Part shown: piece after piece, positions 23,056 to 34,626 of the stretch
How the letters are laid out: every line of letters begins with the position of its first letter
Position numbering within the stretch: the stretch's first letter is position 1
Assembly: GCA_017420755.1 (NCBI GenBank)
Contig: JAFQOG010000013.1
Location: 1 to 35,458, forward strand
Origin: Clostridia bacterium
GTDB lineage: Bacteria; Bacillota; Clostridia; Oscillospirales; CAG-272
Length of the DNA: 35,458 nt
Direction: 5' to 3'
Position numbers and translations under genes: made by a program
The notes under the pieces: model-generated
The model's input: the letters and a program-made list of their open reading frames with translations, nothing else
Database searches by the model: none
Told to the model about the DNA's origin: nothing

Positions 23056-26000
23056 TTAGCTATCTATTGTAGAAATTGTTAGTGTAATTTCCTCTAAAAC
23101 ATCGAGAAGAATTCTTACTGTATCAAGCGATGTGAACAAGGAAATGTTGTTCTCAATTGCAAGATGACGAATTTCGTAGCCATCCTTTTGGTTAGCTCCG
23201 CCAGCGCCAGCGTCGCTTGTGTTAATTACATATGCAATATGTCCTTGACGCATAGTTTCCGGAATATCGTTTGAGCCATTTCCAATCTTTTTCTTAACTC
23301 TTGTTCTAATTCCGTGCTCCTTTAAGAACTTAGCTGTTCCCTCGGTAGCCTCAATATTAAATCCGAGATTATAGAAGCGACGAATAAGCTCAAGAGCCTC
23401 TTCCTTATCCTCGTCAGCGATAGTAGCAAGAATTGTTCCATAATTTTGGAGCTGCATACCAGATGCTTGAAGAGCCTTATAGAATGCTCTGTTCAAGGTA
23501 TCATCATAGCCGATTGCCTCACCTGTTGACTTCATCTCCGGGCTTAGATAAGCATCAATTCCACTAATCTTCTTATATGAGAATACAGGAACCTTACAGT
23601 ACCATCTCTTCTTCTCCTGTGGATAAAGGTCGAATATTCCAAGCTCCTTAAGTGATTTACCAAGAATTACCTCAGTTGCGATGTCCGCAAGAGAGTATCC
23701 TGTTGACTTAGATAGGAATGGAACTGTTCTAGATGAGCGTGGGTTTACCTCGATAATATAAACATCATCGTTTTGGTCAACTATGAACTGAATGTTGAAC
23801 AGACCAATTATGCCGATACCAAGACCAAGCTTTTTTGAATAGGTTAGGATTTTGCCCTTTACCTTGTCAGAGATTGAGAATGATGGATATACGCTAATAG
23901 AGTCACCACTGTGAACTCCTGTACGCTCTACAAGCTCCATGATTCCTGCAACAAATACATCGCGTCCGTCACAGATTGCGTCAACCTCTACCTCCTTACC
24001 CTTGATATAGTGGTCAACAAGAACGGGCTTATCAACATCTATTTCAACGGCGGTTCTAAGGTATTGACGGAGCTGTTGCTCATTTGATACGAGCTGCATA
24101 GCACGGCCACCAAGAACGAATGAAGGACGAACCAAAACAGGATATCCAACCTCGCTTGCTACTCTTACGCCATCTTCAATATTTGTAACTGCCTGTCCTC
24201 TTGGCTGAGGGATATCAAGCTCTTCGAGAATTTTTTCAAAGGCGTCACGATTTTCCGCTCTTTCTATTGCCTCGCAGTCTGTACCTATAAGCTTAACCCC
24301 ACGCTCTGCAAGAGGAGCGGCAAGGTTAATTGCGGTTTGTCCGCCAAGAGATGCAATAACACCGTCTGGCTTTTCAAAGTCTATAACCTCCATTACATCC
24401 TCGACTGTTAGAGGCTCAAAATAAAGCTTGTCAGAGGTTGTATAGTCGGTTGAAACGGTTTCCGGGTTATTATTTATAATAATAGCCTCGTAGCCGGATT
24501 CCTTAATTGTCTTTACAGCGTGAACTGTTGAATAGTCAAACTCTACGCCTTGACCGATACGAATAGGACCAGCACCAAGAACGATTATCTTCTTTCTGTC
24601 AGTATGAATGGACTTGTTTTCACCCTCATGTGACGAATAGAAGTAAGGAATATATGCTCCAACATGAGCTGTATCAACCATTTTAAATACAGGAACAACT
24701 CCGTTTTCATGGCGAAGATTATATACTGCAAGCTCATTTGTGCCCCAAAGCCTTGCAATAAACTTATCTGAGAAGCCCATTTTCTTAGCCTCTGCGAGTA
24801 CTGCTATATTATTTACATTAGCAGAAAGCTTTTTCTCCATATCAACAATCTTCTTAACTGATTCAAGGAAGAATGCTGTTATCATTGTAATCTCGTGAAG
24901 CTTTTCTACGCTTACGCCAAGACGAAGGAGCTGTGCGATACCGAAAATGTTATCGTCATGGAATTCTGATATATATTCAAGGATCTGTGCTTCGCTCCAA
25001 TCATCGAATTTAACCATATGAAGATGGCAAACACCAATTTCAAGTGAGCGAGCAGATTTAAGAAGACATTCCTCGAGGTTCGAGCCAATGCCCATGCACT
25101 CGCCTGTTGCCTTCATTTGTGTTCCGAGCTTGTTTGGAACGGTTGTAAACTTATCGAATGGGAAGCGTGGGAATTTAGCCACTACATAATCAAGGCTAGG
25201 CTCAAAAGACGCCTTTGTGCCGGCAACCTCGATCTCGTCAAGAGTCATACCAACTGCAATTTTTGCGGTTACTCTTGCGATCGGGTAGCCACTCGCCTTT
25301 GATGCAAGCGCGCTTGAACGGCTAACTCTTGGGTTTACCTCTATAAGATAGTATTCGCTAGTTTCAGGGTTAAGAGCAAATTGAACATTACAGCCACCCT
25401 CAATTTTCAACTCCTTAATAAGCTTTATAGCGCTATCGTTGAGCATTTTAAGGTCATGCTCGTTAAGAGTCATGATAGGAGCAACAACAATTGAGTCGCC
25501 TGTATGAACTCCAACAGGGTCGATATTCTCCATTCCACAGATGGTAATTGCGTTATCGTCACCATCACGCATAACCTCAAACTCGATTTCCTTAAAGCCT
25601 CTTACGCTCTTTTCTACGAGAACCTGATGAACGGGTGATGCGTCAAGAGCACCTTGAGCAAGCTCGATATATTCTTCCATGTTGTATGCGAAGCCTCCAC
25701 CTGTTCCACCAAGCGTAAATGCAGGACGAAGAACTACAGGGAAGCCAATCTTTTCAATTGCACGCATAGCCTCTTCCATGTTGTTTGCGATTTCAGATGG
25801 AATTACAGGCTCACCAATGGATTCACATAGCTCCTTGAAGAGCTCTCTATCCTCGGCTCTTTCAATACTACGACCGCTAGTTCCAAGGAGCTCTACTCCA
25901 CTTTCCTTGAGAACGCCCTTCTTTTCAAGGAGCATAGCCATATTAAGTCCTGTTTGTCCACCGATACCAGGTACGATTGCATCAGGACGCTCATGTCTTA

Positions 26001-26232
26001 TGATTTTTGCCACATATTCAAGTGTTAATGGCTCCATATAAACCTTGTCAGCAATTACGGTATCTGTCATTATAGTTGCAGGGTTAGAGTTTACAAGGAT
26101 TACCTCGTAGCCTTCTTCCTTAAGTGCAAGGCATGCTTGAGTTCCTGCATAGTCAAACTCTGCTGCTTGGCCAATTACGATAGGTCCTGAGCCTATAATC
26201 ATAACTCTTTTTATATCTGTTCTCTTTGCCAT
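23056..26232 (-). CDS. carB: Carbamoyl-phosphate synthase large subunit
   Basis: A 1058-residue enzyme of normal length built from two ATP-grasp halves. The first half opens VMIIGSGPIVIGQAAEFDYAG and the second, near residue 555, IVLGAGPIRIGQGVEFDYS. Each half has an ATP-binding lysine/glycine loop (RPAFTLGGTGGG; RPSFVLGGRAM) and an EVNPR metal site. The C-terminal MGS-like domain (from about 930) would bind regulators. It makes carbamoyl phosphate from ammonia, bicarbonate and ATP, but normally gets ammonia from the small subunit CarA, which is not encoded here. Start ATG at 26232 with AAAGGAG upstream. Confidence 0.97.
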   Translation of the reverse strand: MAKRTDIKRVMIIGSGPIVIGQAAEFDYAGTQACLALKEEGYEVILVNSNPATIMTDTVIADKVYMEPLTLEYVAKIIRHERPDAIVPGIGGQTGLNMAMLLEKKGVLKESGVELLGTSGRSIERAEDRELFKELCESIGEPVIPSEIANNMEEAMRAIEKIGFPVVLRPAFTLGGTGGGFAYNMEEYIELAQGALDASPVHQVLVEKSVRGFKEIEFEVMRDGDDNAITICGMENIDPVGVHTGDSIVVAPIMTLNEHDLKMLNDSAIKLIKELKIEGGCNVQFALNPETSEYYLIEVNPRVSRSSALASKASGYPIARVTAKIAVGMTLDEIEVAGTKASFEPSLDYVVAKFPRFPFDKFTTVPNKLGTQMKATGECMGIGSNLEECLLKSARSLEIGVCHLHMVKFDDWSEAQILEYISEFHDDNIFGIAQLLRLGVSVEKLHEITMITAFFLESVKKIVDMEKKLSANVNNIAVLAEAKKMGFSDKFIARLWGTNELAVYNLRHENGVVPVFKMVDTAHVGAYIPYFYSSHEGENKSIHTDRKKIIVLGAGPIRIGQGVEFDYSTVHAVKTIKESGYEAIIINNNPETVSTDYTTSDKLYFEPLTVEDVMEVIDFEKPDGVIASLGGQTAINLAAPLAERGVKLIGTDCEAIERAENRDAFEKILEELDIPQPRGQAVTNIEDGVRVASEVGYPVLVRPSFVLGGRAMQLVSNEQQLRQYLRTAVEIDVDKPVLVDHYIKGKEVEVDAICDGRDVFVAGIMELVERTGVHSGDSISVYPSFSISDKVKGKILTYSKKLGLGIGIIGLFNIQFIVDQNDDVYIIEVNPRSSRTVPFLSKSTGYSLADIATEVILGKSLKELGIFDLYPQEKKRWYCKVPVFSYKKISGIDAYLSPEMKSTGEAIGYDDTLNRAFYKALQASGMQLQNYGTILATIADEDKEEALELIRRFYNLGFNIEATEGTAKFLKEHGIRTRVKKKIGNGSNDIPETMRQGHIAYVINTSDAGAGGANQKDGYEIRHLAIENNISLFTSLDTVRILLDVLEEITLTISTIDS

Positions 26233-26246
26233 TTTCGTCTTCTCCT

Positions 26247-27422
26247 TTATCTATTACTTAATTTTTCATCAATATAAACCAATTTGCCATCACATATTGT
26301 AGCGAGGCATTTTCCGAACACTCTTTCTCCGTTATAAGGAGTTGAGCGTCCCATTGTCTTAAAGCTATTTGCGTCTATTATATATTCCTCGTCAAGAGAA
26401 TATACTGTATATCCATTTGGCTCAATTCCAAGCCTTGCATATGGATTAACCGCCATTAGCTCGATAAGCTTTTCAAGGGAAATGACTCCCTCTTTTACAA
26501 GCTTGGTATATAAAATCGGGAATGCGGTTTCAAGGCCGACAATTCCATTCAAGCTTTTAAGACCTTTGCTTTTTTCCTCTGCCGAATGAGGAGCGTGATC
26601 TGTAGCTATCATATCGATAGTTCCATCGCAAAGTCCCTCGATTAGAGCAAGCCTGTCCGCCTCAGTGCGAAGTGGTGGGTTCATACGGAAGCCACCCTCA
26701 TCTCTTATAACCTGTTGAGATAGGGTTAAATAGTGAGGCGCAGTTTCACATGTTATATTAACACCATTTCTCTTTGCCTCGCGAATTAAGGCAACGCTTT
26801 CCTTGGTTGATATGTGGCAAACATGATATTTGCATTTTATATCGTCAACAAGCATAATATCTCTTTCGATTTGCTTCCATTCAGCCTCGGGAGAATCCTT
26901 TATTTGAGTGCCATCCTCACAATGCGCAGAGATTATTTTGTCAAGCGCCCTTGCTCTATGCATCGCCTCTCGCATAAGACCGTTGTCATCAACGCCACGG
27001 CCATCATCACTAAATCCGCAAACGAATGGTGCTAACGCCTCAAGATCGGCAAGCTCGCATCCGTTTTGTCCCTTGGTAATACTTCCAAATGGCAAAACGC
27101 GAATATCTGCTCCGTTTTTGATTAGCTCTAGCTGTATATTCAGGCTATCAAGGCAATCCGGAACGGGATTAAGGTTTGGCATTGTGCAAACGGTTGTATA
27201 TCCTGCGCTTTTAGCAGAATTATTTCCTGTCACAATGGTTTCCTTATAAGAAAAGCCCGGCTCTCTAAAATGCACATGCAAATCAGCAAAACCGGGAAAA
27301 ATGAAATATTTAGTTGAGTCGATAAAAAGACTGTCAAAAGAAGTGGTATGAGCCTTTAGCTCGCCACCCTGCTCGAATCTTCCTTTTTGAAAAAAAGTAG
27401 CCCCGGAAAAAACAGCGTTCAT
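26247..27422 (-). CDS. pyrC: Dihydroorotase (class I)
   Basis: A 391-residue amidohydrolase closing carbamoyl-aspartate to dihydroorotate. Zinc ligands: H49 and H51 in HVHFREPG, SAHCEDG, YHVCHIST, and the catalytic Asp in ATDHAPHS. The block CGFSDDGRGV marks class I. It is somewhat shorter than the usual 420-430 residues; the N-terminal part before HVHFREPG is short and odd (GATFFQKGRFEQGG). Start ATG at 27422 with AAAGGAGG upstream. First gene of the eight-gene pyr operon, behind two promoters. Confidence 0.95.
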   Translation of the reverse strand: MNAVFSGATFFQKGRFEQGGELKAHTTSFDSLFIDSTKYFIFPGFADLHVHFREPGFSYKETIVTGNNSAKSAGYTTVCTMPNLNPVPDCLDSLNIQLELIKNGADIRVLPFGSITKGQNGCELADLEALAPFVCGFSDDGRGVDDNGLMREAMHRARALDKIISAHCEDGTQIKDSPEAEWKQIERDIMLVDDIKCKYHVCHISTKESVALIREAKRNGVNITCETAPHYLTLSQQVIRDEGGFRMNPPLRTEADRLALIEGLCDGTIDMIATDHAPHSAEEKSKGLKSLNGIVGLETAFPILYTKLVKEGVISLEKLIELMAVNPYARLGIEPNGYTVYSLDEEYIIDANSFKTMGRSTPYNGERVFGKCLATICDGKLVYIDEKLSNR

Positions 27423-27642: not shown

Positions 27643-28122
27643 TTACAGGATTATTTTGCGCCATTCATCTACAAGAGCTTCAATACTCCATTTTGCATTT
27701 GCGGCAGATGTTGATGGCAGACAAATAGCTTCTATTTTAATAGTATCCTTTATGAATTTATCATAATATTTTTTTGCAGTTTTGCCATTTATGAAGATTT
27801 TTTCAATTTTTGATGCCATAATTATTTGGTTCAAATCGTTTGGAACTACATTTTTTATAGAGCTATCAGCGCTACCGATTATTTCACATGATGAAATAAC
27901 ATCCCAAAGGGCTATTTTATGATTAAAAAGAAGCTGTTTCTTCTCTTCTATCGTTTGAGGCTCATCTTGTTCAAAGACTGATGATACAACTCGCCAAAAT
28001 CTATTTTGCTTATGTCCATAGAAAAACATTTGCTCTCGTGATTTAACAGATGGAAAGCTTCCTAATATAAGAATTCTGGAGCTTTCGCTATAAAATGGCG
28101 GAATTGGATGCTTTATTATCAT
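27643..28122 (-). CDS. DNA-deoxyinosine (hypoxanthine) glycosylase, UDG superfamily
   Basis: A 159-residue base-excision repair enzyme. The N-terminal ILGSFPSVKSREQMFFYGHKQN block and the FINGKTAKKYYDKF and LPSTSAANAKW blocks match the short uracil-DNA glycosylase family annotated as DNA-deoxyinosine glycosylase, which removes hypoxanthine (and possibly uracil) from DNA. Its ATG overlaps the stop of the chloride channel gene (ATGA at 28119-28122), so the two are co-translated; I see no functional reason for this pairing. Confidence 0.88.
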   Translation of the reverse strand: MIIKHPIPPFYSESSRILILGSFPSVKSREQMFFYGHKQNRFWRVVSSVFEQDEPQTIEEKKQLLFNHKIALWDVISSCEIIGSADSSIKNVVPNDLNQIIMASKIEKIFINGKTAKKYYDKFIKDTIKIEAICLPSTSAANAKWSIEALVDEWRKIIL

Positions 28123-29714
28123 ATTACTTCCGCTTCCTTGGCATCAAATATTTGGTCACCAACTATGGCTAACAGCTCGTCCTTGGTGATTCCCTCATCG
28201 TATGTTGAATACCTTACATGAAGCGTATCTCCCTCTCTTATCGCCTTTGAACCATGCTCATCAACCTCAGCATCTAAATTTTCATTATGCTGAAGAGATA
28301 GAACGAAAAGATTTGTTGGCCAAAAGATATCTCTTATTTGCTTTCCTATTGCAAAAGCCCCCTTTTGAACAGTAACAAACGCATCAAATACCTTTATACT
28401 CTTACCCTCGTTTTGCTCCTCTACTCTGGTATCCAAAACGCTATCGTTAATCGACTTTGCTCCAAACACCTCTGTTATTACAAAAGCAACAGCGGAAACA
28501 ACAACTACATATAAAATATTTTCATAGCACGAAAGGGCCTCTATTGCAAATACAATCGCTGTAAGAGGTGTTTTCATCATACTGGAAATACACGCGGTTA
28601 TTCCTAAGACAAGAATAAGCACATAATATTCTTGACCAAGACCAAAAAGCTCACATATCCCATTTCCTAAAAGCGAGGAAATTAATGCTCCTAGGGCTAG
28701 GATAGGAATAAACAATCCTCCTGTTATGCTAGTCGAGCTGGCACAAAGCGTCAAAATTGATCTTGCAATTAAAATCAACGCCACTAAATATATTGCTATA
28801 CTATCTTCAAATAGCCCCAATATCAGCTCATGTCCGGTCGAAATAAATGAATATGAAATCAAGCCCAAGCCTAGTGTCACTATAAGAACCGCAAAAATTT
28901 TATACTGATGTGGAATTTTCTTTGTTTTCTTATTTATCAAATAATTAATTAAACGATAAAGCTGTAAAAATCCAACAGCGAAAAGTCCGACCACTATTCC
29001 TATAACAAGCGGAATCCAAATATCCTTTATTGGCATAGGCATTATGTCCATGCTTGGAAATAGCGATATGGTTATTTTCAAAATTGGAGCTAAAAGCTCT
29101 GTTGTTATACGAGCAAACATTACGGAAACACAAGATACAATTATTATCATAGGGGAAATGCGCTGATGCGCCTCCTCTACCGCAAACATAATTCCCGATA
29201 TTGGCGCTCCCGTAGCAGTTGAAAAGCCTGCACACGCTCCACCTGTCATTGAGTATCTATCCCATGCCTTTTGTTTTTTCGCAAACGAGTACACGCTTCC
29301 ACGACCTACTGCCGTACCAATTTGAACAGCTGGTCCTTCGTTACCTAGAGGAACTCCAATTAAAAATGTAGTAAGGGACAAGAAAAAAACTCCAAGAAGA
29401 TTTCTTAACCATCTAAAAGTAAGTATTCCTCTTAAAACACCAATAGAGGTTGGAATTCCACCTCCGCGCAGATTAGGAATTTTCTTATAGATAAATGCGA
29501 AAAGGAAAGAGATTCCAAAAAGCGCAAAAATCGTAATAGGAATAAACTGTGGGTGTTCTCTTATTAATTCATACCCCTTTTCAGAAAAAGAGATTATATA
29601 TGTTGCACACACCTTATATAGCATTACAATAATCGCGGTTAAAATACCCGTTACCGAGCCAAATATAAAAGCGGGACATATTAAATTGATAAAATAATTT
29701 TTATATTTTTTCAT
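28119..29714 (-). CDS. ClC-family chloride channel/antiporter with C-terminal RCK_C domain
   Basis: A 531-residue membrane protein. Anion-path motifs are GGGIP (84-88, in place of GSGIP), GNEGP (124-128, in place of GREGP, with the gating glutamate E126) and GGLFIP (in place of GxFxP). The gating glutamate suggests an H+/Cl- exchanger or a gated channel. It is not the fluoride-type ClC, which uses other residues. The last 90 residues after the membrane part form a TrkA-C/RCK_C-like domain (VFDAFVTVQKGAFAIGKQI to DTLHVRYSTYDE), a cytoplasmic ligand-binding module. I start at the ATG at 29714 because AAGGAT lies 8 bases upstream; the open frame has 10 more codons without a ribosome site. Confidence 0.93.
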   Translation of the reverse strand: MKKYKNYFINLICPAFIFGSVTGILTAIIVMLYKVCATYIISFSEKGYELIREHPQFIPITIFALFGISFLFAFIYKKIPNLRGGGIPTSIGVLRGILTFRWLRNLLGVFFLSLTTFLIGVPLGNEGPAVQIGTAVGRGSVYSFAKKQKAWDRYSMTGGACAGFSTATGAPISGIMFAVEEAHQRISPMIIIVSCVSVMFARITTELLAPILKITISLFPSMDIMPMPIKDIWIPLVIGIVVGLFAVGFLQLYRLINYLINKKTKKIPHQYKIFAVLIVTLGLGLISYSFISTGHELILGLFEDSIAIYLVALILIARSILTLCASSTSITGGLFIPILALGALISSLLGNGICELFGLGQEYYVLILVLGITACISSMMKTPLTAIVFAIEALSCYENILYVVVVSAVAFVITEVFGAKSINDSVLDTRVEEQNEGKSIKVFDAFVTVQKGAFAIGKQIRDIFWPTNLFVLSLQHNENLDAEVDEHGSKAIREGDTLHVRYSTYDEGITKDELLAIVGDQIFDAKEAEVI

Positions 29715-29745
29715 ACTTATCCTTATTCTCAAAATTATTAACACT

Positions 29746-29865: not shown

Positions 29866-29899
29866 AAAATAAAGCTCCTCGAATGAGGAGCTTTATTTT
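29866..29899. terminator. Terminator of the AAA+ protease gene
   Basis: A 15-bp perfect stem (29866-29880 with 29885-29899, containing AAAGCTCCTC) with a 4-base loop begins at the stop codon of the protease gene on the minus strand. Its AT-rich outer arms let it work on the plus strand too. Confidence 0.88.
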
Positions 29900-32800
29900 T
29901 AATCGTTTGTTACATTTGCGCTAAGAATTTCGTCAATTTCATTTTCTCTTAGTTGGCTATTTTCAAGTAATGCATCAACTAGCGCATCAATAGCGTTTTT
30001 GTTTTTGCTAATGAGCTCTATTGCCTTCTTTAGCTCCTCTTCAAGAATTTGGTTGATTCTTTGACGAACCTTTTCGTAGTTAAATGTCAACGCATCATGA
30101 CCGATACGAGAAATTCCAAACTCCTCGTCCATACCATAGTAGCAGATCATATGCTCGGCTGTTCTTGTTGCGCTATAAATATCGCCACTAGGACCGGTTG
30201 AAATTCCGTCCTCGTTTCCATAATAAACGACCTCTGCTGCGCGACCACCCATAGAGGTGCGAATTAATCCTCTTAACTCTGCCTTGGTATATCCAAATTT
30301 GTTTTCAGAATCTCCATGCTGCATATATCCACCATGGTCGCCTCTTGACACGATTGTTAGATATGAGGGCTTTTCGCCATTTAGCCAACAAATTAATGCG
30401 TGTCCTGCCTCGTGGCGAGCAGTACGAAGCATGGTTTCCTTATCCCACTTCTTCTTTTCGCCACTATTAAAGGTTTCAAACGCCTCCTCAAATATCGCAT
30501 CGTCAATTATCATATTATCGGAGCGAATTGCCATTCTAAGAGCAAGCTCAAATACGGAATCAAGCTCTGCTAAGCTCATACCGGTAGAGCGTATGCACGC
30601 GTTTTGAAGTTGATTTTCGGAGAGGTTAACATTTGGATGCTGTTTAATCTTCATTTCAAGGAATTGTCTGCGCTCGTCCTTGTTTGGAAGATCCACGCAA
30701 ATTCTTCTGTCGAAACGACGAAGCAATGCTGCATCAAGGCTTCTTGCACTATCCTCTTCTATCGAGTAGTTAGTAGCTGCCAAAACGAAAACAGGCTTAG
30801 ATGTATCTGTTTTGAAGCCATCCATTTCAGTCAAGAAGGCAGTCAAAATGGAGCTATATGCATCTGTTACATTTCTGTTTTTACCAATCGCATCTATCTC
30901 ATCAACAAACAAAATTGATGGTGCATATTTACGAGCGGTCTTAAAAATGTTATGTACTCCCTCAGGACCATCCTTTATGAATTGATTTCCCTCGGCTGCA
31001 ATAAATGTTAGATTAGACTCACCAGCCATAGCCTTTGCAAGCAAGGTTTTACCTGTACCTGGAGGGCCATAAAGCAATACGCCCTTTGGTGCAGCAACAC
31101 CCTTTCTAACATATTTTATTGGATCTTTAAGATATTCTACAAAGTATGCAAGCTCTTCCTTTGCATCCTTTGCACCAATTACCTTGTCGAATTTTACATT
31201 TGGTCTAGAAACGCTATCAAGAACACTTCCGTCGTCCTCAACATCGGTTACGAGGCTTAGGTGGAAATTATAAAGATTGATTTCGGCAACGCTTCCATCC
31301 TCAGAGAGTGTTTGAGATGTCTTGTATGAAAGCACCTTGCTTTCTCTTGCAAGCTTGAGCATTTTGCTCTGCTTATATGCAATATCGCATCTTTCAGTTA
31401 TCAATGCTACAAACTTTTCCGGATCATCAAAGCTTGCAGTTATAACATCTCTTGCGCCAATTCTTGCAAATGACAAGAATTCTTGATCGCTAATATCGCC
31501 ATCGTTTTCTTGAATAATATAAGTCGGAACTGTTGTCTTGGTAAGAACATAGTCTAAGAATTCGATTCCCGCAGAATCAATATCCTCTACATTAAGAACC
31601 TTTCTTTCATTCTTTGTATTACAATGAATATCTCCCAAAACAAGTGTTATGTCATTATCAAACATAATCTTTTTAGCATCTTCAAGATTGTCGACAATAT
31701 GACATGTCATATTTGATAATATTTCGCTACACTTAGTTATATTAGGATTGTTTGAAAATACAAGAATTTGTGGATTTTGCGAATTTACAAATAGATTTGC
31801 GCTATCCTCATCACAATTATCCATAGAAACATTAACCTTGATTTCCTTAAGGCTTGTAATTCCTTCTGCTGAAACAAGACGAAGTAGCTCATATAGCTCT
31901 TCATGGAAAAACGCCTTTGCTCTTCCGCTAACAGAACGAGCGTCAGCATTTCCACCCTCTGAGAATAAGATTGTAGACGGAATTGCATTATCAAGTGTAA
32001 TTTTAACGCCTGTTGCGCTTTCAAATGCCTCAATATCCTTGTTTAATTCACGCTTTGCTATTGTAGCAAGATTGTTAGCATCAAGGAAATTGAACATAAC
32101 AACGGTTTCCGCTGAAAAACGAGAGCAAATAGCCGGTGGGAACAATGGCTCGTCGCTCATAGGCTTTTTGTCAGAAGCAAGAGCTTTTATAATTTTCTTT
32201 CTAGGAATTGTAGAAAGATTGATACATTCAGTTTCCTCATATAAGTTTTTACCCGCATTGGTTGTAAAGATTATGATAGCTTGAGTAAAGGAAACCTCTT
32301 CCTCTGTATATCTATCTGTTAGTCTTCCACCCTCGAGAATTTGCAAGAAAAGGTTCATTATATTAAGGTGTGCCTTCTCTATTTCATCAAACAAAATTAC
32401 GCACTTAGGATTATCTGCAACAAAGCTAGTTACAAGACCTTCTTTTGCGTTTTTATAAGAGCGTTGAGTTCCGGCAAAAAGTCCAACGCCTTCCTCGTGT
32501 GTGATATATTCGCTCATATCAAAACGCTTAAATGGCAATCCGAGAGCCTCAGCTACCTTTTCGGACAAGAAGGTTTTTCCAACACCTGGAGGGCCTGCAA
32601 AAAGGAATACAGAGCTTGGCTTTTTAACCTCTTTACCGGAAATCGCCTTTATTCTAGACTGAAAATATCCGGATACAAAGTTATTTATAGCATTATCTTG
32701 TCCATATACATTTTCAAGCAAAAATGACTGAATTCTTTGAGTGTCAGTAATGATTTGAGCAAGATTCTCCTCGGGCTCTTCCTTTAGATCATCATCTTCA

Positions 32801-33348
32801 AATTCATCATCAAAGCTTTCAGGCTCGGGATTACGGCGACGCTCCTCTGGTCTCTTTTTAAAAGCACCAAACAAATCTTCAATTTCTGTTTTAAAACCAA
32901 TCTCGTCTGTGTTTCCAAGAGTGATTGTTCTATCCTCACTTGCATCGATTATAGTTTTTCTAATCGCATCAGTAGGATTATCGAAAACCATATTCAATAA
33001 AGCATCAGTAGTTAAGATTGAATCCTCATCTACATTATTCAAAATTTCTTCAAAAAGCTCCTCGTCGGCAGTAGGAACATAATCCAAAGAGTTTACAGTA
33101 TTTAACAGGTTGTTTATAACCTCGATAAAATTGACATTATATCTGTTAAAAACATTTCGTGCTTTTTTTATTTCTTGAAGTATTTCCGGGGTGTTTAAGC
33201 TTTCGTCCAAAGCATTATCATTTGCAGAATTTAAAATTCTAATAGTTATAACCACAAAATGATCTGGCGTCAGGCGTTGGCTTGAACTCATTAAAAACAT
33301 TTCCTCAGCCATGTCAAAGATGTAATTTAGCAATGCAGTTTTTTTCAT
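29899..33348 (-). CDS. Soluble two-motor AAA+ protease: Clp-N, ClpA/B D2 ATPase, receiver-like domain, FtsH ATPase and M41 peptidase
   Basis: A 1149-residue protein, numbered from the ATG at 33348 (AAAGGA 7 bases upstream). Residues 1-135 resemble the paired Clp-N repeats; 160-195 is an acidic linker. Residues about 205-490 are a ClpA/B D2-type ATPase: YGQDNAI, Walker A GPPGVGKT (252-259), Walker B with D321-E322 (FDEIEKAH), arginine finger R410, D2-small domain. Residues about 524-648 look like a receiver domain that keeps the phospho-Asp position (D573 in LGDI) but lacks the acidic pair and the lysine. From about 715 comes FtsH: GPPGTGKT (761-768), Walker B D816-E817, R878 and R881, then M41 HEAGH (979-983) with third zinc ligand D1056 in TGPSGDI. 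No membrane helix. The FtsH pore loop (FVG) is missing; Y298 keeps the Clp one. No partner genes nearby. It should unfold and degrade cytosolic proteins. Confidence 0.9.
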   Translation of the reverse strand: MKKTALLNYIFDMAEEMFLMSSSQRLTPDHFVVITIRILNSANDNALDESLNTPEILQEIKKARNVFNRYNVNFIEVINNLLNTVNSLDYVPTADEELFEEILNNVDEDSILTTDALLNMVFDNPTDAIRKTIIDASEDRTITLGNTDEIGFKTEIEDLFGAFKKRPEERRRNPEPESFDDEFEDDDLKEEPEENLAQIITDTQRIQSFLLENVYGQDNAINNFVSGYFQSRIKAISGKEVKKPSSVFLFAGPPGVGKTFLSEKVAEALGLPFKRFDMSEYITHEEGVGLFAGTQRSYKNAKEGLVTSFVADNPKCVILFDEIEKAHLNIMNLFLQILEGGRLTDRYTEEEVSFTQAIIIFTTNAGKNLYEETECINLSTIPRKKIIKALASDKKPMSDEPLFPPAICSRFSAETVVMFNFLDANNLATIAKRELNKDIEAFESATGVKITLDNAIPSTILFSEGGNADARSVSGRAKAFFHEELYELLRLVSAEGITSLKEIKVNVSMDNCDEDSANLFVNSQNPQILVFSNNPNITKCSEILSNMTCHIVDNLEDAKKIMFDNDITLVLGDIHCNTKNERKVLNVEDIDSAGIEFLDYVLTKTTVPTYIIQENDGDISDQEFLSFARIGARDVITASFDDPEKFVALITERCDIAYKQSKMLKLARESKVLSYKTSQTLSEDGSVAEINLYNFHLSLVTDVEDDGSVLDSVSRPNVKFDKVIGAKDAKEELAYFVEYLKDPIKYVRKGVAAPKGVLLYGPPGTGKTLLAKAMAGESNLTFIAAEGNQFIKDGPEGVHNIFKTARKYAPSILFVDEIDAIGKNRNVTDAYSSILTAFLTEMDGFKTDTSKPVFVLAATNYSIEEDSARSLDAALLRRFDRRICVDLPNKDERRQFLEMKIKQHPNVNLSENQLQNACIRSTGMSLAELDSVFELALRMAIRSDNMIIDDAIFEEAFETFNSGEKKKWDKETMLRTARHEAGHALICWLNGEKPSYLTIVSRGDHGGYMQHGDSENKFGYTKAELRGLIRTSMGGRAAEVVYYGNEDGISTGPSGDIYSATRTAEHMICYYGMDEEFGISRIGHDALTFNYEKVRQRINQILEEELKKAIELISKNKNAIDALVDALLENSQLRENEIDEILSANVTND

Positions 33349-33401: not shown

Positions 33402-33429
33402 ATTATACAACTTTTTTGATAAAAATCAA
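33402..33429 (-). promoter_or_regulatory. Promoter of the AAA+ protease gene
   Basis: On the minus strand a perfect TATAAT (33402-33407) has TTGATT (33424-33429) 16 bases upstream, leading to the gene that starts at 33348. Confidence 0.65.
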
Positions 33430-33534: not shown

Positions 33535-33563
33535 TTAAAAAGACCTCGAAAGAGGTCTTTTTA
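33535..33563. terminator. Terminator of the membrane XRE gene
   Basis: An 11-bp stem (33537-33547 with 33552-33562, arm AAAAAGACCTC) with a GAAA loop, 9 bases after the stop codon. The arm core AGACCTC is shared with the terminators at 34854-34881 and 35342-35369. Confidence 0.88.
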
Positions 33564-33570
33564 ATGTAAA

Positions 33571-34626
33571 TCATTTTTGAGTTTTATTTCTTCTACAATG
33601 ACAATTTATGCCTATAATTAAACCCACAATAGCTAAAAGTAATAATGTTAAAGATATAATAAGGTGAATATTCTGCTCTATTGTTACATTCGCTTGCCAA
33701 GAAATCAAATTCGCCTTGAAAATATTAATTCTGTCGATTTCTTTTTGAATTTGAAGATTTTTTGATTTTATAAAAAGTGGTGGCAAATATAAAAATGCGT
33801 TTGATAAAAACAAAACTATACTCGTCTTTAAAAATCTATTTATTTTTAAAAATCGTACACTCATAATGACATTTAATGCCAAATACACGCCTAATTCAAT
33901 AGGAAGTGCTGTTTTCAGATACCAAATATTAGGTTCTCCATTTGTTATTGTGTATGCATTAATCACAATAAGAAGGATATTTAGCATTAAAAAATCAACG
34001 GCAAGAGAAATAAAATCATTATATTTTTTCAGTTTAGAAAAAACTTCATATTTTGCAATATAAATAGGAGTAAATATAATTATCAATCCCAAAAGCACAG
34101 ATATTGATGCTATCCAAAACCAGTTTCCATTCGTATAAATACAACACACTCCAAAAAGCAAAACAAGCGCTAAATACTGCGATAATGGAATAAAAATAAG
34201 CTTGTTTTTCTTTATCAATTTCGGCAAATTCGTAAAAGTGAATGCAAGCAATAACGCTGAAATGACAATCCAAAACCAAGAAAGTGTTTTATTTATTGCC
34301 AAATTGCAAATAAAGCATGGTATTAAAGCAACACCATAAGCAATATAAAAGAAGAGACTCCAAGATAACGAAAAGGCTCTCCATTTTCTTGCTTGATTTT
34401 TTTCCTCTCTTGCTTCATTATCAACACTGGCCGTTATAAGCTCGTGTTCGGAAACACCTAGAATTTCCGCAAGCCTTGGCAACAAAGTTATATCGGGATG
34501 GGCCACATCTCTTTCCCATTTGCTTATTGCCGATTCAGAAATGAATAACAATTTAGCTAATTCTTTTTGGGTCAAGCTCTTTTCTTGTCGTTTTTCTCTT
34601 AAAAAGCTACCGAAACTGTTTTCCAT
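33571..34626 (-). CDS. Membrane-anchored XRE-family regulator
   Basis: A 351-residue protein. Residues 1-65 are an XRE helix-turn-helix (LTQKELAKLLFISESAISKWERDVAHPDITLLP), close to that of the gene at 162-1247. From about residue 85 come seven or eight hydrophobic helices with short loops, and the C-terminus is cysteine- and basic-rich (GINCHCRRNKTQK). Regulators with a DNA-binding head and a multi-helix membrane tail occur in Bacillota and may sense signals at the membrane; the trigger is unknown. Start ATG at 34626 with GAGAGGAG upstream; an extended -10 element lies at 34662-34670. Confidence 0.85.
   Translation of the reverse strand: MENSFGSFLREKRQEKSLTQKELAKLLFISESAISKWERDVAHPDITLLPRLAEILGVSEHELITASVDNEAREEKNQARKWRAFSLSWSLFFYIAYGVALIPCFICNLAINKTLSWFWIVISALLLAFTFTNLPKLIKKNKLIFIPLSQYLALVLLFGVCCIYTNGNWFWIASISVLLGLIIIFTPIYIAKYEVFSKLKKYNDFISLAVDFLMLNILLIVINAYTITNGEPNIWYLKTALPIELGVYLALNVIMSVRFLKINRFLKTSIVLFLSNAFLYLPPLFIKSKNLQIQKEIDRINIFKANLISWQANVTIEQNIHLIISLTLLLLAIVGLIIGINCHCRRNKTQK

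Follow-up and report, generated by a model that had tools for sequence, protein, structure and literature searches.

The window analysed here is positions 1 to 35,458 of contig JAFQOG010000013.1 of a Clostridia bacterium (Oscillospirales, CAG-272; assembly GCA_017420755.1). It was found that one gene on its minus strand encodes a fusion protein in which a probable degenerate Clp N-like domain, a ClpA-D2-type AAA+ ring (ring 1), a probable pseudo-receiver, an FtsH-type AAA+ ring (ring 2), and an M41 zinc peptidase follow one another from the N to the C terminus. This is a real, conserved, and new combination of known parts. Judging from the sequences, I consider it rather probable that the protein works as a soluble AAA+ zinc protease, complete in itself, in which two ATPase rings of different kinds are stacked, and that it probably belongs to a stress or defence module with nucleotide signalling. 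Taken by itself, an active double-ring protease is quite likely; the link to a nucleotide-signalled module, taken by itself, is tentative and falls just short of an even chance.

Domain order and active sites

The features of the fusion gene are given below from the N to the C terminus, with window positions and with residues counted from the ATG (counting from the TTG discussed below puts the motifs two residues higher).

29899..33348, minus strand: fusion gene, ATG start, 1149 amino acids plus stop (open frame; AAGGAA ahead of the ATG)
32944..33327, minus strand: degenerate Clp N-like domain, residues 8-135 (profile-profile match)
31975..32736, minus strand: ring 1, ClpA/B D2-type AAA+ module, residues 205-458 (NCBIfam ClpA D2 part, E 3e-46; Pfam AAA_2)
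32572..32595, minus strand: ring 1 Walker A GPPGVGKT, residues 252-259 (sequence; K258 invariant in 36/36)
31393..31773, minus strand: pseudo-receiver insert, residues 526-652 (profile-profile match)
31630..31632, minus strand: D573, equivalent of the receiver phospho-acceptor (D in 31/36)
30451..31209, minus strand: ring 2, FtsH-type AAA+ module, residues 714-966 (NCBIfam FtsH_fam; Pfam AAA)
31045..31068, minus strand: ring 2 Walker A GPPGTGKT, residues 761-768 (sequence; K767 invariant in 36/36)
30964..30981, minus strand: shortened ring 2 pore loop FIKDGP, four KYVG-like residues missing (alignment; DNA)
29926..30441, minus strand: M41 zinc metallopeptidase domain, residues 970-1141 (PF01434, 101 bits)
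30400..30414, minus strand: HEAGH zinc motif, residues 979-983 (H979, E980, and H983 invariant in 36/36)
30181..30183, minus strand: D1056 of TGPSGD, presumably the third zinc ligand as in FtsH structures (invariant in 36/36)

The frame is open on the minus strand from TTG 33354 or ATG 33348 down to the stop at 29899. The Shine-Dalgarno-like AAGGAA (33360-33355) abuts the TTG and lies six bases before the ATG. Because of this spacing, the ATG start and the length of 1149 residues are preferred. On this protein, Pfam recognised AAA (3.2e-46), AAA_2 (1.7e-34), and Peptidase_M41 (1.2e-28), all above the curated cut-offs. The NCBIfam model FtsH_fam gave 326 bits across residues 714-1138, which is under its equivalog cut-off of 600. 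The FtsH-type AAA module sits directly N-terminal of the M41 domain, as in the FtsH family. Only one Clp-type AAA module was found by Pfam and NCBIfam, and not a D1 and D2 pair. A preliminary description of this window, made from its letters alone, had claimed one continuous frame with two AAA+ cores of different families, an HEAGH motif, and a third zinc ligand, and all of these were confirmed at the residues it gave. Its account of the rings and the peptidase stands at the level of sequence; it had missed the probable Clp N-like domain and the four-residue deletion in the ring 2 pore loop.

The alignment (A3) comprises 36 proteins; L047, which is cut by a contig end, and the loci from the genome search were left out of it. 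The Walker A and B motifs of both rings, the arginine fingers (R410 of ring 1, and R877 and R878), the sensor-2 arginine R471, and the zinc-site residues H979, E980, H983, and D1056 are invariant in all 36. This invariance speaks for the use of both motors and of the peptidase throughout the family. A pattern scan of ring 1 between sensor 1 and the arginine finger found no ClpP-docking tripeptide ([ILVM]G[FLIVM]) in 37 sequences. The maximum 19-residue hydropathy of the fusion protein is 0.99, versus 3.05 for the ordinary FtsH of the same genome, and the hydropathy scan found no membrane helix, as had been claimed. Four of the 35 relatives barely exceed 1.6 (1.62-1.69) in the N-terminal region, and these peaks are not read as membrane helices. 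The proposal of a self-contained cytosolic protease with two motors is thus supported, at the level of sequence, by the invariant ATPase and zinc sites, the lack of a membrane segment, and the missing ClpP-docking tripeptide.

The Clp N-like domain and the insert between the rings

The N-terminal region matched a profile of 14 Clp N-domains with a profile-profile probability of 90.7 (E 1.2e-6), versus 0.2 for a receiver control. The insert matched seven receivers of its own genome with a probability of 76.4 (E 2.2e-5), versus 0.06 for a Clp N control. Both values come from a cleaned run; an earlier run, which contained one wrong-frame row and used an extra alignment option, gave probabilities of 55 and 46. 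In PDB profile searches, the N-domain found a designed protein first, then the ClpA N-domain (0.0025) and troponin C (0.0045), while the insert found receivers at the top (E 0.006) and a designed protein at 0.008. For both regions alike, single-sequence and PDB searches were far weaker than the profile-profile comparison.

Does the insert retain the phosphotransfer residues of a receiver? An aspartate equivalent to the phospho-acceptor (D573) is present in 31 of the 36 proteins. However, at the first acidic position of the receiver site (532), all 36 have A, G, S, or T, and there is neither a conserved Thr/Ser at 613 nor a conserved Lys around 637. Since the receiver aspartate is kept but the acidic residue, the Thr/Ser, and the Lys are not, the insert is, by its sequence signature, probably a degenerate (pseudo-) receiver, and its phosphorylation seems unlikely. 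It had been described as a regulatory insert. A receiver-like domain probably does lie between the rings, but it is degenerate, and a regulatory role is presumed.

Distribution and origin of the fusion family

Is this fusion common among related bacteria? A search of 197 genomes of the order brought seven more relatives of full length (32-47% identical), spread over six genomes of different families. In addition, 84,980 species genomes were scanned with the slice of the alignment covering ring 1 and the insert, and 80 of 272 relatives were kept; a contig scan with the single protein as the query had given no match, whereas the alignment slice succeeded. In 36 of the loci kept, the match spans both ring 1 and the insert, though in one of them only partly. 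A full-length frame of 1094-1361 amino acids is present in 35 of these, and the last one is cut by the contig end (L047). The other 44 loci, with short matches of 43-163 residues, were taken as Clp-type and left out. The record names of the relatives are Clostridia, Oscillospiraceae, Ruminococcus, Eubacterium, Lachnospiraceae, and similar, or uncultured bacteria.

A profile of the insert was found at eight places in seven of the 197 genomes of the order, every one within a frame of 1003-1206 amino acids. The window's own genome is counted in this sample and in three others, where the insert occurs in 5 of 29 genomes (genus), 2 of 391 (class sample), and 3 of 398 (phylum sample). No stand-alone or split version of the insert was seen in the order, genus, class, and phylum samples. 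Homologues split into two genes, which the preliminary description had named as the case against it, were therefore not seen, all eight places in the order being in single frames.

An unrooted tree of the FtsH-like part was made from 55 rows (45 fusions, two short variants, and eight ordinary FtsH proteins), leaving out the protein of genome G152 and loci L014, L047, L166, and L167. Between the fusions with the short variants and the ordinary FtsH proteins lies a branch that measures 1.94 changes per site and has support of 100/100. This long and fully supported branch fits one origin of the fusion family.

Some members vary in length or number. Two shorter relatives (L161:2726-5611, minus strand; L164:7497-10385, plus strand) are 961-962 amino acids long, lack the Clp N-like region, and have GAPAVGKT as the ring 1 Walker A motif. 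In L161 (genome G214), about 6 kb separate the shorter relative from a full-length fusion, and each has companion genes of its own. Genome G002 has two divergent fusion paralogues (L018 and L023), one beside a CARF nuclease gene and the other beside a YbjN-like gene. Relatives of 1330 and 1361 amino acids (L057:8516-12508 and L058:3228-7313) have a long extra N-terminal region.

In viral contigs, only two short Clp-type matches (132 and 110 residues) were found, and phage records gave no match to the ring 1 and insert slice. None of 2984 matched plasmid records covers 80% of the fusion protein. The best plasmid matches (H1-H10) are separate ClpK and FtsH genes on plasmids of Klebsiella, Enterobacter, and Acinetobacter; in several of these records, the ClpK and FtsH genes fall under one match, side by side and unfused.

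Neighbouring genes and co-occurrence

The neighbours of the fusion gene were counted in 44 loci, whose flanks vary in length, with several contigs ending nearby and no random-locus control for adjacency. Within 9 kb of the fusion, at least one of five partner clusters is present in 22 of the 44 loci. YbjN-like small proteins are found in 15, a TrkA/RyR-like protein with three to four hydrophobic N-terminal segments in eight, and a CARF-PD-(D/E)xK nuclease in seven. The nuclease matches PADLOC CARF4--CARF_PDDEXK (5e-36) and the structures of VC1899 (2.6e-9) and Can2 (7e-6), while its Pfam Card1_endonuc match is under the cut-off. TIR proteins are encoded near the fusion in L021 and L037, and protein kinases in L054 and L060. 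YbjN-like proteins have been treated as peptide-binding chaperones in conflict systems (PMC9503650).

I then compared the seven carriers among the 197 genomes with the 190 non-carriers. The TrkA/RyR-like family occurs in 6/7 carriers and 6/190 non-carriers (p 8e-8); leaving out the two carriers used to build the model gives p 2e-5. The gene is not beside the fusion in four of the carriers, and the co-occurrence also holds with the partner on another contig. The CARF nuclease family, at the preset E of 1e-20, occurs in 4/7 versus 17/190 (p 0.003); a cut of 1e-60, picked after the fact, gives 4/7 versus 8/190 (p 2.6e-4), and p is 0.02 once G089 and G002, both of which fed the CARF model, are left out. 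The YbjN-like family occurs in 2/7 versus 6/190 at the preset E of 1e-10, and in 2/7 versus 2/190 at 1e-30, a cut also picked after the fact. Since the carriers share the TrkA/RyR-like membrane protein, the CARF nuclease, and YbjN-like small proteins, these results suggest that the fusion carries out regulated proteolysis within a stress or defence module that responds to nucleotide signals.

Some of these labels are weak. The larger YbjN-like cluster had no Pfam match in the five members tested, and its probability against the Pfam-recognised cluster (L052, 1.2e-10) is only 37; a PDB profile search of this family found a designed protein only. In the TrkA/RyR-like family, the RyR part was recognised in 2/8 members at E 0.089 and TrkA_N in 3/8 at 1.1e-5, and a PDB profile search gave no match. 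The sigma/anti-sigma and PP2C labels of some neighbours were given by eye, and those tested had no Pfam support. The PADLOC matches to IetA, DolB, and others were rejected, as they reflect AAA similarity only. No CRISPR array was found in 58 loci (931,064 bases), the single repeat match being a simple repeat; Cas10 was not searched for.

The fusion-free genome G144 has two small genes, a CARF nuclease gene, and a gene for a 659-amino-acid AAA/AAA_lid_6 protein in a row (L111:6583-10916, minus strand). This row resembles the arrangement of L023, and the AAA/AAA_lid_6 protein stands in the last place, where L023 has the fusion.

Alternative explanations

Several observations weigh against the proposed two-motor protease and its link to a signalling module. 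In single-sequence scans, Pfam Clp_N matched 0 of 21 N-domains, and of the 36 inserts just six gave Response_reg, at E 2.6e-4 at best; that of the window was not among them. Moreover, the aromatic-hydrophobic-Gly pore loop of the FtsH-family AAA module is deleted in the window's copy. The ring 2 aromatic is absent in 7 of the 36 aligned proteins, the window's copy included, and present in 29; L027 has a gap resembling that of the window, and in the other five the aromatic is missing. In L162 and L161, which are relatives from the same genus, the loop is complete. Thus, the second motor of the window's copy is possibly weakened, and its ring 2 may not translocate strongly. The shortened loop suggests that ring 1 would do most of the pulling in this copy.

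A dedicated disaggregase or remodeller would agree with this pattern, since the ring 1 loop retains its aromatic in 33 of the 36 proteins. Ring 1 would then pull, ring 2 would be mainly a scaffold, and the M41 domain would either cut at limited sites (regulator processing) or be dispensable. This is unlikely, however, because the ring 2 Walker residues and all the zinc ligands are invariant in all 36, which argues for the use of both activities.

Other points concern the module. None of the partner models (TrkA/RyR-like, CARF, and YbjN-like) matched the window's own genome, which is 87% complete, and the gene here lies between genes for a helix-turn-helix (HTH)/membrane protein and a ClC-type channel. 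Furthermore, the sampled genomes are related and not independent, so that the p values given above are optimistic. A general housekeeping quality protease with no tie to defence, whose neighbours merely hitch-hike in variable islands, may be considered in view of the missing partner genes and the neighbours here. I regard this too as rather improbable. The fusion is patchily distributed, as the counts for order (7/197), genus, class, and phylum show, and the co-occurrence persists with the partner on another contig. Because the distribution is patchy and partner genes are shared, a conditional module (a nucleotide-signalled stress response or defence) is favoured over housekeeping. In G204, which belongs to the same genus, a fusion 51% identical to that of the window has a YbjN-like neighbour, and a few genes off there is a gene for a ClC-type channel that shares 54% identity with the one in the window. 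Since this related channel is also close by, the locus is probably shared between the window and G204, and loss of the small YbjN-like gene may have occurred in the lineage of the window.

Finally, an artefact of assembly or annotation joining a clp gene to an ftsH gene might be suspected in a fragmented draft of 57 contigs, but it is refuted, and chance likewise excluded, by conserved full-length homologues in many independent assemblies, by the ordinary ftsH gene standing separately on another contig of this genome, and by the insert being seen, in the 197 genomes of the order, only between two rings.

Comparison with known systems

In known AAA+ proteases, either the unfoldase has two rings and works with a peptidase on another chain (ClpAP), or one ring is fused to the peptidase (Lon and FtsH). 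LonA is a soluble AAA+ protease with its motor and peptidase in one chain, but it has one ring and a Ser-Lys peptidase. The fusion resembles FtsH (M41, TIGR01241) in its AAA module followed by an M41 peptidase with HEXXH and an Asp ligand, and it is about 40% identical to the ordinary FtsH of related genomes. It differs from FtsH in lacking a membrane helix, in reaching 326 of the 600 curated bits, in its long separating branch, and in the second AAA+ ring and receiver-like domain that precede the FtsH-type part. FtsH has been described as membrane-anchored (PMC9020784). Compared with ClpA, ClpB, and ClpC, the fusion has a ring 1 that aligns with ClpA D2 and a probable Clp N-like domain; however, it has a single Clp-type ring, no ClpP-docking tripeptide, and a peptidase in the same chain.

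The FtsH component of the MoxR-vWA ternary systems, which are predicted conflict systems, likewise has two AAA+ modules, both FtsH-type and the first inactive (Kaur et al. 2020, PMC7159879). The accessible portion of that paper mentions neither a peptidase nor a Clp ring for this component, unlike the fusion. A MoxR-vWA pair was not noticed among the listed neighbours of the fusion loci. CalpL, the CRISPR-associated SAVED-Lon protease, has a Lon-type peptidase and is not known to carry AAA+ rings. If the link proposed for the fusion holds, both would be proteases in a nucleotide-signalled immune setting, but the fusion differs in that the loci scanned lack CRISPR arrays.

No model with the domain order of the fusion was found in Pfam, NCBIfam, or PADLOC, and neither was a description of it in open-licence full texts, which miss most subscription papers and preprints. 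Within these sources, the earlier remark that no such protein has been described stands.

Surroundings of the fusion gene

Two further features lie upstream of the gene.

33402..33429, minus strand: promoter-like TTGATT-16-TATAAT upstream of the fusion gene (consensus scan, 10/12)
33539-33560, minus strand: perfect inverted repeat AAAGACCTC/GAGGTCTTT, then T, after the upstream HTH gene (by eye)

The region has 22 promoter-like sites versus 17.9 (standard deviation 4.6) in shuffles, which gives weak support to TTGATT-16-TATAAT. The inverted repeat is a possible terminator by eye and was not listed by the consensus scan. The HTH/membrane protein gene is at 33571-34626 and the ClC-type channel gene at 28119-29744. 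At 23056-27422 on the minus strand there is a 1058-amino-acid frame, and upstream of it a 391-amino-acid frame that resembles dihydroorotase by eye, which suggests that the channel gene is followed downstream by a pyrimidine cluster.

A possible mechanism and its meaning

The protein may form a cytosolic hexamer with its parts in line: first ring 1, then six pseudo-receivers as a collar, then ring 2, and last the M41 chamber. The N-domain or a partner protein would deliver the substrate from the Clp side, and the Clp-type ring 1 would grip and unfold it. The polypeptide would then thread through the collar into the FtsH-type ring 2 and be cut in the M41 chamber. The pseudo-receiver would stand where FtsH has its membrane segment, ahead of the AAA module, and it probably couples a signal or a partner to the rings through binding rather than phosphorylation.

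It is conceivable, if somewhat doubtful, that the fusion represents an undescribed class of AAA+ protease, its two motors coming from different clades, and that in Clostridia it is the protease to be switched on and off in an immune or stress module, likewise undescribed, that works through nucleotide signals. Its companions there would be a TrkA/RyR-like membrane sensor, a Card1/Can2-like CARF nuclease outside any CRISPR locus seen, and small YbjN-like proteins acting as adaptors.

Two rings of different descent and their own peptidase in one chain would allow a direct look at how two motors share work, because single changes within one gene are enough to disable either motor. A protease arm would also be added to CARF/RyR-type nucleotide signalling in gut Clostridia if the co-occurrence is functional.

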